From Ruminiclostridium cellulolyticum H10 (GTDB lineage: Bacteria; Bacillota; Clostridia; Acetivibrionales; DSM-1351): a stretch of 64,000 nucleotides of DNA. The first letter of the stretch is position 1, and the number at the start of each line of letters is the position of its first letter. Both the position numbers and the translations under genes were made by a program. Below, in pieces: positions 31,074 through 36,188 of this stretch. The stretch is from the NCBI RefSeq assembly GCF_000022065.1, contig NC_011898.1, forward strand, positions 3,987,501-4,051,500. Direction: 5' to 3'. Below the pieces are notes generated by a model, which ran no database searches, had not been told where the DNA came from, and saw only the letters and a program-made list of their open reading frames with translations.

Positions 31074-31114
31074 AATATAGATTAAGATTGTATAAATTAT
31101 TTAATTATTGATTA

Positions 31115-31330
31115 AAGTTATGAAGCGGAGTAGTAAAGGAAAAAATAGTCGTCAAGAGAGCTGCATATATGGTGGAATTGCAGTGACTACGTTCTTTGAA
31201 CTCGCCGTGGAGCCGCTGATATAAAAATCAGCCGTATGTCTTTCGTTACAGGACTTTTGAGTGAGCCCCAGGGCTAACAAGAGTGGTACCGCGGATTAAC
31301 CCGTCTCTTTTACTAAGAGACGGGTTTTTA
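31115..31330 (+). ncRNA. T-box riboswitch leader of leuS
   Basis: Stem I (from about 31120, with AAGAGAGCTGC...GGTGGAATTGCAG), the T-box GAGTGGTACCGCGG (31281-31294) and a terminator (arms 31298-31309/31315-31326, then T-run) are in the expected order. The specifier triplet is CTC (31201-31203), read by tRNA-Leu, matching the gene downstream. Confidence 0.92.
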
Positions 31331-33954: not shown

Positions 33955-34521
33955 ATGAATATTACTTTTTATAGGAAGCTTGCATACAAAGTGGCTGATT
34001 CAGTCACAAGGAATGGGCAGTATACAGAAACTGAAATTAAAGACATTCGTTACGGGCTGGTATGTATCTTCTCAGATTTTTATAAAACTCTTCTATACTT
34101 ATTGATATTTACAGTGTTCTCTTTAACAAAGGAGTTTATCTCAGCATTTATTGCTTTTCTTCTGCTTCGGCCCTTTCTTGGGGGTTATCATTTTAAAAGT
34201 GAGCTTGTATGTATTATAATGTCATTTCTGACCATGGCCATAGCTATATTTGCAGGTAAAATAATTATAATTCCCTACTATATCCAATTATTGCTTATTA
34301 TAGCTCTTCCAATTTTTGCATTATTAATTATACCTGTAAAAGACAGCCCAAAAAAAGAGTACCGAAAAAGAACAGGGATTTTAACAGGATTAATTACAGT
34401 TTTACTCCTACTGTCAGACTATTTCTATATGCCTGATAATATAATTACCTGGTCTGTTTTAGAAGTTTATGTATTATCTGTATACCAACTACTAATTATC
34501 AAATATATGCATAATATGTAA
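33955..34521 (+). CDS. agrB: AgrB-type peptide-processing membrane endopeptidase
   Basis: A 188-residue membrane protein that cleaves and cyclises the AgrD precursor. The catalytic segment LLRPFLGGYHFKSELVC contains Arg72, His79 and Cys86, with the His-to-Cys spacing of seven seen in AgrB. Hydrophobic segments follow (about 45-70, 85-125, 140-160, 165-185). A frame five codons longer exists, but GGAG lies within it, nine bases before the ATG at 33955. The agrD-like gene starts 86 bases after the stop and the kinase follows. Confidence 0.92.
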   Translation: MNITFYRKLAYKVADSVTRNGQYTETEIKDIRYGLVCIFSDFYKTLLYLLIFTVFSLTKEFISAFIAFLLLRPFLGGYHFKSELVCIIMSFLTMAIAIFAGKIIIIPYYIQLLLIIALPIFALLIIPVKDSPKKEYRKRTGILTGLITVLLLLSDYFYMPDNIITWSVLEVYVLSVYQLLIIKYMHNM

Positions 34522-34607
34522 TATATTTTGTAAAATATATTGACTTTTCCTGTAGAATGTTAGAATATTAAGTTGAGAATTAAAATTTTATTTAAGGAGT
34601 GATTCTG

Positions 34608-34715
34608 ATGAGGAAAAATTTGTTAAGTTCAGTTGGGAAAGTTTCATTAATAGTGACAGGTTTGATTACAGGTGCAGCTTCTAAAATATTATGGTTATAT
34701 AAGCCTGAAAAGTAA
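34608..34715 (+). CDS. agrD: AgrD-like cyclic peptide precursor without cysteine
   Basis: A 35-codon gene between agrB and the kinase, with AAGGAG 8 bases before the ATG. The peptide has an N-terminal amphipathic stretch (MRKNLLSSVGKVSLIVTGL) followed by ITGAASKILWLYKPEK. Position, the leader and the YKP near the end (compare YQP or HQP after the ring in clostridial AgrD) identify it. It contains no cysteine. Ser25 could close a lactone as in FsrB-type peptides, giving a ring with one more residue than usual. The acidic tail is cut to KPEK. Confidence 0.75.
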   Translation: MRKNLLSSVGKVSLIVTGLITGAASKILWLYKPEK

Positions 34716-34745
34716 TTTAATGCAGGCTAATTCTGTTAAACTTTG

Positions 34746-34785
34746 CTCTAATAATTAGAGTTTTCCTCTAAGTATTAGAGTGTTT
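34746..34785. repeat. Two tandem palindromes after agrD
   Basis: CTCTAAT-A-ATTAGAG (34746-34760) and CTCTAA-GTA-TTAGAG (34766-34780) repeat at 20-base spacing, each followed by T-rich sequence. They may be a weak or double terminator between agrD and the kinase gene, or paired binding sites two helical turns apart. Confidence 0.5.
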
Positions 34786-34853: not shown

Positions 34854-36188
34854 ATGTTGCATATAAAGTTTTTTTTACTGTTATTGACTGTTATTGAAGG
34901 TTTTATTTTTATAATGGCTTTTTATTTTCTATCAGGCCAGCGTAAATTCATAAAAAATAATTATATTCGGATTGCCTGCTTTGTATCTATTTATACAATA
35001 TATACATACTGGATTACCAAGTTTTTGCCGTCAGGGCTGCATTCAATTTTAATTGCATCCCTTACATGTTTTATACTTAACTATATACTTAACGGAACTC
35101 TTTTAAAAAGTTTTGTCAAAGTTCTAATTATTTTTTTGGGAATAGCTATTATTGAAAGTCTCATCGGTCTGGCATGTACGACTATCATAGGCAAGCCAAT
35201 GTCAGTATTGATTCACAATAATGAAGTACTGTTAGTTCTAGGTATTATAGCAAAGCTGATTCAAAGCACTATTGTATTTATATTATACAATTCCCACGAT
35301 GGATTTTCCTGGTTAAAGGACGGAAACCCCTATCAGTCAAGATACAAGCAGACTCTTATAATGATTTTTGCAGTACTGTTCTTTATGATAGGAACAAATA
35401 TTTATATTTCCAAAGACCCCCAAAATCTACTTCTTTATAATATTTTTACCTTTGTTATATATATCGTTTTGATTATTTCAATGCTTTCTGCCTTCAGGGA
35501 AGGTTCAAAGCTTGAGATTCTGCAATATGCAAATGAACTTAAAAAAGAAAACGTTTTTCAGTTGATTTCCTTTAACGAAATGGTGGCTAAAGAAAGGCAC
35601 GAATATAAAAACCATTTAAATACTATATACGGTCTTTGTACCCTAAACAGACCTGACCTAAGTGAAAAGGTCAAGCAATATATAAACAATTATGCCAATA
35701 ACAGCGAGACCAAGAATATAAATGTATGTTCTGGTAACGACTTTGTTGACGCAATTATCAGCGTAAAATATAATAACGCTTTAAAGAAAGATATAGAAGT
35801 TCTTGTGGACTTTGAAGAACCTTTATCAAGTGCAGTAATAGACGAAGACACTGCTGTTACTGTTTTATCTAATATAATAGATAATGCTTATGAATCTATA
35901 TTAGGAATAGATAGGGAAAAAAAGTATATACGTCTTGAAACATATATCGATAATGATATTTACTATATGTCTATTTCCAACAACGGCCCCATGATTCCCG
36001 AAGCAATTATTAAGAAAATTTTCAGTGCAGGTTATTCCACTAAAGAAAATTCATCCAAAAAAAGAGGCTTCGGCCTGAGTATAGTTCAATCACAGATAGA
36101 AAAGTGCGGGGGCAGCATCCATATTAACAGCAACGAAGAAATTACAGAATTTCTCATAACACTTATAGTGAATAATCAGGTAAGCTGA
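34854..36188 (+). CDS. agrC: AgrC-like sensor histidine kinase
   Basis: About 444 residues. Six to seven membrane helices occupy residues 1-210, typical of AgrC-type receptors. The dimerisation segment KERHEYKNHLNTIYG (about residue 245) contains the phospho-acceptor His in the HPK10-type context. A minimal HATPase domain ends with SNNGPMIP...STKENSSKKRGFGLSIV. No LytTR response regulator follows; a helicase gene is next. The start is uncertain: ATG 34836, ATG 34854 or TTG 34857, with GGAG at 34847-34850 best placed for the last two. Confidence 0.85.
   Translation: MLHIKFFLLLLTVIEGFIFIMAFYFLSGQRKFIKNNYIRIACFVSIYTIYTYWITKFLPSGLHSILIASLTCFILNYILNGTLLKSFVKVLIIFLGIAIIESLIGLACTTIIGKPMSVLIHNNEVLLVLGIIAKLIQSTIVFILYNSHDGFSWLKDGNPYQSRYKQTLIMIFAVLFFMIGTNIYISKDPQNLLLYNIFTFVIYIVLIISMLSAFREGSKLEILQYANELKKENVFQLISFNEMVAKERHEYKNHLNTIYGLCTLNRPDLSEKVKQYINNYANNSETKNINVCSGNDFVDAIISVKYNNALKKDIEVLVDFEEPLSSAVIDEDTAVTVLSNIIDNAYESILGIDREKKYIRLETYIDNDIYYMSISNNGPMIPEAIIKKIFSAGYSTKENSSKKRGFGLSIVQSQIEKCGGSIHINSNEEITEFLITLIVNNQVS

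Follow-up and report, generated by a model that had tools for sequence, protein, structure and literature searches.

Organization of the agr Locus

The window examined here is the 64,000-nucleotide stretch at positions 3987501-4051500 of the forward strand of NC_011898.1, from Ruminiclostridium cellulolyticum H10, a cellulose degrader related to Clostridium. It holds an agr-type locus (Table 1) in which a 35-codon agrD open reading frame, translated as MRKNLLSSVGKVSLIVTGLITGAASKILWLYKPEK and closed by a stop codon, lies between agrB and an agrC-like gene for a GHKL/SPOB-type histidine kinase. The first-pass annotation of this DNA had placed the peptide between agrB and agrC and behind a perfect ribosome binding site, and both statements are borne out by the domain matches and the AAGGAG motif of Table 1. 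Its description of the peptide as AgrD-like, free of Cys and unusually short in the C-terminal tail is likewise correct. Cys is absent from the translation, in which Ser25 and Lys26 precede I-L-W-L-Y31-K32-P33; the Pro, the leader and the AgrB neighbour match the AgrD plan, and five residues follow the presumed ring.

Table 1. Features of the agr locus and its upstream flank, in window coordinates.
Feature	Position	Strand	Evidence
T-box leader upstream of leuS	31111-31311		Rfam RF00230, 108 bits
agrB, membrane cysteine peptidase	33955..34521	+	Pfam AgrB PF04647, E 1.3e-27; R72, G77, H79, C86 kept
Promoter-like site TTGACT-18-AATATT, 5' of agrD	34540..34569	+	Consensus scan 9/12, weak
Ribosome binding site AAGGAG	34594..34599	+	8 nt 5' of ATG; identical in 5/5 close genomes
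agrD, Lys type, 35-aa predicted signal precursor	34608..34715	+	Translation, homologues, selection, Lys column
Predicted five-residue core K26-I-L-W-L30, codons	34683..34697	+	Lys column 14/14; hhalign vs C. thermocellum-type S25
K26 codon	34683-34685	+	Within predicted core
Stem-loop then T-rich run, between agrD and agrC	34745..34781	+	Folding vs shuffles
agrC-like histidine kinase gene, start codon uncertain	34854..36188	+	HATPase_c 4.9e-15, HATPase_c_5 6.5e-12, SPOB_a 8.4e-7

The locus is flanked by leuS upstream and by an SNF2-type helicase gene downstream (both named by inspection). AgrB is present in all 11 genomes searched from the genus, R. cellulolyticum included, and in each it is followed by a small agrD-like open reading frame. 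The kinase occupies the same place in the 10 other genomes, all of which retain the order leuS-agrB-agrC-snf2, and the genes are thus inherited together; at one locus from a metagenome-assembled genome (L045) leuS is about 2.4 kb away from agrB. The N-terminus of the kinase has several hydrophobic segments. The window range contains no LytTR regulator (the genome holds six LytTR places), hence no AgrA-type regulator gene adjoins agrC as in an agrBDCA operon, and because neither neighbour encodes a regulator the kinase looks like an orphan. A Pfam DUF2749 match in the domain search of the locus (E 0.029) fell below its cut-off and was disregarded.

The agrD open reading frame is a real gene under purifying selection. 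Its dN/dS is about 0.09-0.26 in 10/10 pairs among the five closest genomes (dN 0.025-0.091, dS 0.13-0.60), and in most pairs the differences fall mainly at third codon positions. This low ratio, together with a syntenic homologue in each of the 10 other genomes of the genus, takes the gene beyond chance. The promoter-like block 5' of agrD is well kept across the five close genomes; it is a weak candidate, because the consensus scan of the whole stretch returned 14 sites against 6.2 in shuffles. The 95-nt stretch around the stem-loop 3' of agrD folds at -19.4 kcal/mol (z -3.0, equalled by 0 of 200 shuffles), and the arms are largely kept in the five close genomes when the sequences are compared by eye. 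A terminator consensus scan of the stretch did not report the stem-loop, which is a possible terminator or attenuator ahead of agrC.

An Invariant Lysine in Genus-Wide AgrD Peptides

The Lys-type set comprises 14 AgrD-like peptides from 11 Ruminiclostridium genomes, two of which carry tandem agrD copies with differing cores between agrB and agrC: three in G002 (locus L173, 3916-5157) and two in G009 (L177, 3865-4524). These copies perhaps supply several signals for one receptor. The first tandem reading frame of G002 (L173, 3916-4023) has no ATG, GTG or TTG near its in-frame beginning; it starts with ATA directly after a stop codon, and a purine-rich stretch lies ahead of it.

Position 26 is Lys in 14/14 peptides, encoded by AAA in 10 and AAG in 4, and it sits seven residues ahead of the Pro position in every one. 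The residues around it vary. It is preceded by Ser in six peptides, Thr in three, Leu in three and Ala in two, and followed by Ile in six, Leu in four, Thr in three and Phe in one. The resulting cores are KILWL, KIFWL, KLIYF, KFWFY, KTIGF, KTLYF, KTLFF, KLFFF, KLWLF and KIVLF. Lys and Arg exchange at peptide positions 2, 3 and 7 and never at 26. The Pro33 column holds Pro in 13/14 peptides and Gln in one, and five or six residues follow the presumed ring in all 14. The first-pass annotation had placed Ser25 or Lys26 near the expected ring position. Lys26 stands; Ser25, although present in 5/5 close genomes, is replaced in much of the genus, and the conserved distinguishing residue is the Lys. 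The annotation had also proposed that Cys at this position in relatives would indicate decay. All 14 peptides of the 11 genomes carry Lys, which rules out a decayed Cys peptide.

An unchanging residue need not be a nucleophile: the leader residues L5, G10 and S13 are likewise invariant (14/14). We tentatively read S13 and G10 as helix-packing residues, and a large ring closed from Ser13 is, strictly speaking, still conceivable. The 14 copies of the Lys are not 14 independent events either, since all Lys types share one ancestor.

Comparison With Cys and Ser AgrDs

The order survey covered 110 loci, the window's own included, with at least two AgrB places present twice; it did not take in a further AgrB place of G005 with an equal score, the one at 3934960 in G002 or the partial AgrB of G042. 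With a Cys/Ser profile, 62 loci yielded a peptide (58 unique) and 48 yielded none, among them the window locus; for several of the 48 the AgrD may fall outside the stretch examined. In the class survey, where adjacency to AgrB was no criterion, a peptide was present in 91/93 loci among the best-scoring matches listed. The 58 unique order AgrDs and the wider class set close the ring with Cys or Ser and now and then with Thr; elsewhere in the order this residue lies seven or eight places before the Pro position, Cys mostly at eight. A script that looks for Cys, Ser or Thr at two alternative positions sorted 144 comparison strings, some of them the same peptide with different N-terminal extents, into 95 Cys, 43 Ser and 2 Thr, with 4 unsorted (by eye two Cys, one Ser and one Thr). 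One of these strings has Lys beside a Cys and none has Lys alone; a Lys peptide of the genus (L205) and L210 had been excluded beforehand.

The tail differs as well. Counted from the Pro, it has 3-4 residues in the Lys type and 7-16 in 55 of the 56 sorted Cys/Ser order AgrDs, the one outlier (62) being a mis-anchored string. The charged C-terminal tail of Staphylococcus aureus AgrD is reported to span 14-15 residues (PMC10196373), and a long charged tail is missing from all 14 Lys-type peptides.

The NCBIfam model for AgrD cyclic lactone autoinducers, TIGR04223, has a curated cut-off of 19 bits. The window peptide gave no match to it at E<=1, and none of five other Lys peptides exceeded the cut-off (best 13.2 bits), as against 33.5-56.4 bits for 5/5 Cys/Ser controls. 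The hydrophobic or amphipathic leader, the short core and the Pro after it are all present, the Pro in 13/14. The ring-closing position holds Lys instead of Cys or Ser in 14/14, with a Ser adjacent in 6/14. In Pfam, an AgrD model matched 0/5 Cys/Ser controls, and the silence of Pfam on the Lys peptides is uninformative because it names neither group.

A close resemblance is to the AgrD of Clostridium thermocellum, for which a lactone linking S25 to F29, with Y30 next in the chain, was reported from LC-MS/MS (PMC5322536); a C. thermocellum-type AgrD in our set (G024, L188) agrees with that assignment. Aligned by hhalign against this type, the 14 Lys peptides gave a probability of 95 and an E-value of 2.7e-8; Lys26 fell opposite its Ser25, and Ser25 of the window peptide fell in a gap. 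The two share one plan, with the residue seven before Pro, a five-residue core and a Tyr after the core. They differ in the ring residue and the tail, Ser and a long canonical tail in the reported pentapeptide lactone (PMC5322536), Lys and a short tail here.

A Lys-type profile was run on 58 genomes of the order, 391 of the class and 398 of the phylum. Outside the genus it returned weak matches only, and those inspected were Cys/Ser AgrDs or reading frames with no AgrB nearby. Three candidates with a Lys or a similar leader (L210, with the core-like string AKLWFFYS, L052 and L059) have no AgrB nearby and were taken as chance. Across 18 loci checked for AgrB, a clear AgrB lay within about 3 kb only at L051, a Cys AgrD; L211 has a marginal AgrB match (12 bits, E 0.003). 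A tblastn search of viral contigs found no relative, and plasmids and phages gave no match.

AgrB, the Kinase and Their Ancestry

The AgrB beside the window peptide scores as a PF04647 member, and the AgrB proteins that accompany the Lys peptides retain R72, G77, H79 and C86 in 11/11. In the other aligned AgrBs of the order H79 and C86 are present in 107/107, and R72 is Arg in 94 and Lys in 13. The S. aureus counterparts R70, G75 and H77 are described among the key residues of AgrB, with C84 at the reaction site (PMC10196373). A search by sequence for a solved AgrB relative returned none, only two designed proteins at E of about 0.1, and AlphaFold2 models from 11 AgrB sequences (mean pLDDT 51.9) were too poor to use.

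The Lys-type AgrBs group together as a single clade (support 100/100) in a 117-row tree, on a long stem of 2.86 changes per column. Under midpoint rooting the AgrBs of G040 and G053 adjoin this clade, one joining branch being weak by one measure (100/57). In a comparison of kinases at four loci, the G040 and G053 kinases match the window kinase at E 5e-52 and 3e-73 (30-33% identity over about 420 residues), as against E 2e-4 for the kinase of L178, a Cys locus of R. cellulolyticum itself. The G040 and G053 loci (L279, L280) thus have AgrBs that neighbour ours in the tree and similar kinases, whereas their gene order is D-C-B in place of agrB-agrD-agrC, and their AgrDs have Thr or Ser at the Lys register and canonical full tails. 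These sequences are most simply read as a single substitution, at the root of the genus system, that put Lys where a hydroxyl residue had been and was accompanied by the loss of most tail residues.

Within the genus the membrane half of the kinase is 36-43% identical in six distant relatives and the kinase half 65-68% in five. The variability of the membrane half fits co-evolution of signal and receptor, although it is suggestive only. The sixth relative, R. cellobioparum subsp. termitidis (L042), was left out of the kinase-half comparison because of a stop inside agrC. Its agrC, read from 4885, meets an in-frame stop after 227 codons, which is either a real loss or an assembly error.

A Proposed Lysine Lactam and Its Alternatives

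We propose that the locus encodes a dedicated Lys-type AgrB-AgrD-AgrC pheromone system in which the Lys26 amine closes a pentapeptide lactam, KILWL, and we put the probability of this reading at slightly under one half. Amines react readily with thioesters and the amide product is stable, so a Lys could close the ring irreversibly; speculatively, an irreversible step might explain why a long tail became dispensable. In the accepted pathway a thioester between AgrB and the AgrD core is attacked by the Cys of AgrD (PMC4979651). In the pathway that we infer for the window peptide, AgrB Cys86 and His79 would cut after Leu30 and retain the peptide as a thioester, which would then be attacked by the Lys26 side-chain amine and not by the thiol of a Cys or the hydroxyl of a Ser. 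The tail YKPEK would be released as the five-residue isopeptide ring K26-I-L-W-L30 closes; a second protease would then remove the leader, and the exported ring would be sensed by the neighbouring kinase. The common ancestor of Ruminiclostridium would already have had the Lys-type system.

A Lys side chain as ring closer is favoured by an invariant Lys26 amid varying flanks, also in tandem copies with different cores, and by a register that coincides with Ser25 of the C. thermocellum-type AgrD and with the Thr or Ser of L279 and L280. Receptors of the AgrC type can read such rings, since a synthetic lactam analogue of a Listeria autoinducing peptide (AIP) is reported to be an effective agonist; the corresponding lactams of S. 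aureus AIP-I and AIP-II are about 1000-fold weaker (PMC11297923). Several points count against a lactam. Most aligned Cys AgrDs have their Cys one residue earlier, at the place of window Ser25, and the Lys peptides do not reach the curated threshold for AgrD. At neutral pH most Lys side chains are protonated, and we know of no AgrB that uses a Lys amine. AgrB might also not cut in the usual way here, because the tail has only five or six residues and the S. aureus tail residues D33 and E34 are reported as required for cleavage (PMC10196373).

If AgrB or another protease merely trimmed the precursor, an uncyclised peptide led by Lys could be the active signal, and the Lys might be retained because it helps to bind the receptor or to place the peptide in the membrane. 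A core with neither a conserved thiol nor a conserved hydroxyl and a short tail would suit such a linear signal. We consider it unlikely, as the AgrB catalytic residues are kept in 11/11, the Lys occupies the register of a ring-closing Ser, and Arg never appears at position 26 in 14 peptides, though binding by charge alone would permit it. The leader might instead be removed first, leaving the alpha-amine of Lys26 to capture the AgrB thioester and yield a homodetic cyclo(KILWL) whose Lys side chain stays free. Homodetic rings formed through an S-to-N shift are attributed to R. cellulolyticum (Molloy 2021, cited by PMC11297923), and the small residues before Lys in the window peptide could permit cleavage there. 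Such head-to-tail closure has no need of a Lys that is nonetheless invariant, and the Leu or Thr found before it in some relatives would make poor signal-peptidase sites, which makes this reading distinctly improbable.

More doubtful again is a lactone through Ser25, giving a six-residue ring SKILWL in the subclade of the window. It would agree with the Ser25 of the five close genomes, with the many order Cys AgrDs that place Cys eight before Pro, and with the Ser lactone known from C. thermocellum (PMC5322536). Of the 14 orthologous peptides, five have Leu or Ala in place of the Ser and three have Thr, while the Lys is never exchanged, and the profile alignment passes over Ser25 to match Lys26. 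A decayed or non-coding remnant, finally, is hardly credible. The lack of Cys, the short tail and the silence of the curated AgrD model would be expected of one, yet a dN/dS well below 1 in every pair already contradicts it, as does a gene present in all 11 genomes and duplicated and diversified in two.

Relation to Known Autoinducing Peptides

The published bond types of AIPs include Cys thiolactones, Ser lactones and rearranged rings (PMC12312760), and an autoinducing cyclopeptide of R. cellulolyticum is the subject of Molloy 2021 (cited in PMC11297923). The lactones of Enterococcus Fsr GBAP and of the S. pseudintermedius AIP likewise close on a residue other than Cys, but that residue is Ser and not Lys (PMC12312760). 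Among the matches listed in the open-access literature, taken by title and the beginning of the abstract, no natural Lys-closed AIP appears. A Lys lactam would be new as far as these searches show; a Ser lactone would have a precedent within this order. The suggestion of the first-pass annotation that a lactone would be a novel signal type for the group therefore fails, as a Ser-lactone AgrD is already reported from C. thermocellum (PMC5322536) and the order has many Ser-type AgrDs. A natural macrolactam AIP, a Lys isopeptide made by AgrB, that arose once in a lineage whose nearest relatives use Ser or Thr and then diversified across the genus with tandem precursors is a proposal that we advance tentatively, at somewhat less than even odds.

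A Lys in place of the ring-closing Cys or Ser may mean a ring chemistry unseen in such bacterial signals. Thiolactone and lactone bonds are labile, and a Lys-closed ring would, if the lactam reading is true, be a stable natural signal. AgrB would then be able to transfer an acyl group from its active site onto an amine, much as sortases act when pili are assembled, and the enzyme could serve the production of lactam peptides. The failure of the curated AgrD model to recognise Lys-type precursors would likewise follow from a Lys closure.

R. cellulolyticum also carries Cys AgrDs at L001, L003 and L005, which have in common with the window peptide a hydrophobic leader, an aromatic or small-residue core and an AgrB-holding locus. 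They differ in having a Cys core and a long tail with a second Pro, and the two tested match TIGR04223 (2/2); the AgrBs of L001 and L003 are placed elsewhere in the tree from those of the Lys type. L005, near 3651955, is a fifth agr locus of the genome in which AgrB is disrupted or short. Its Cys AgrD and AgrC are intact, a repeated sequence and a Cas2-like reading frame (by eye) adjoin it, and a LytTR regulator gene lies nearby.
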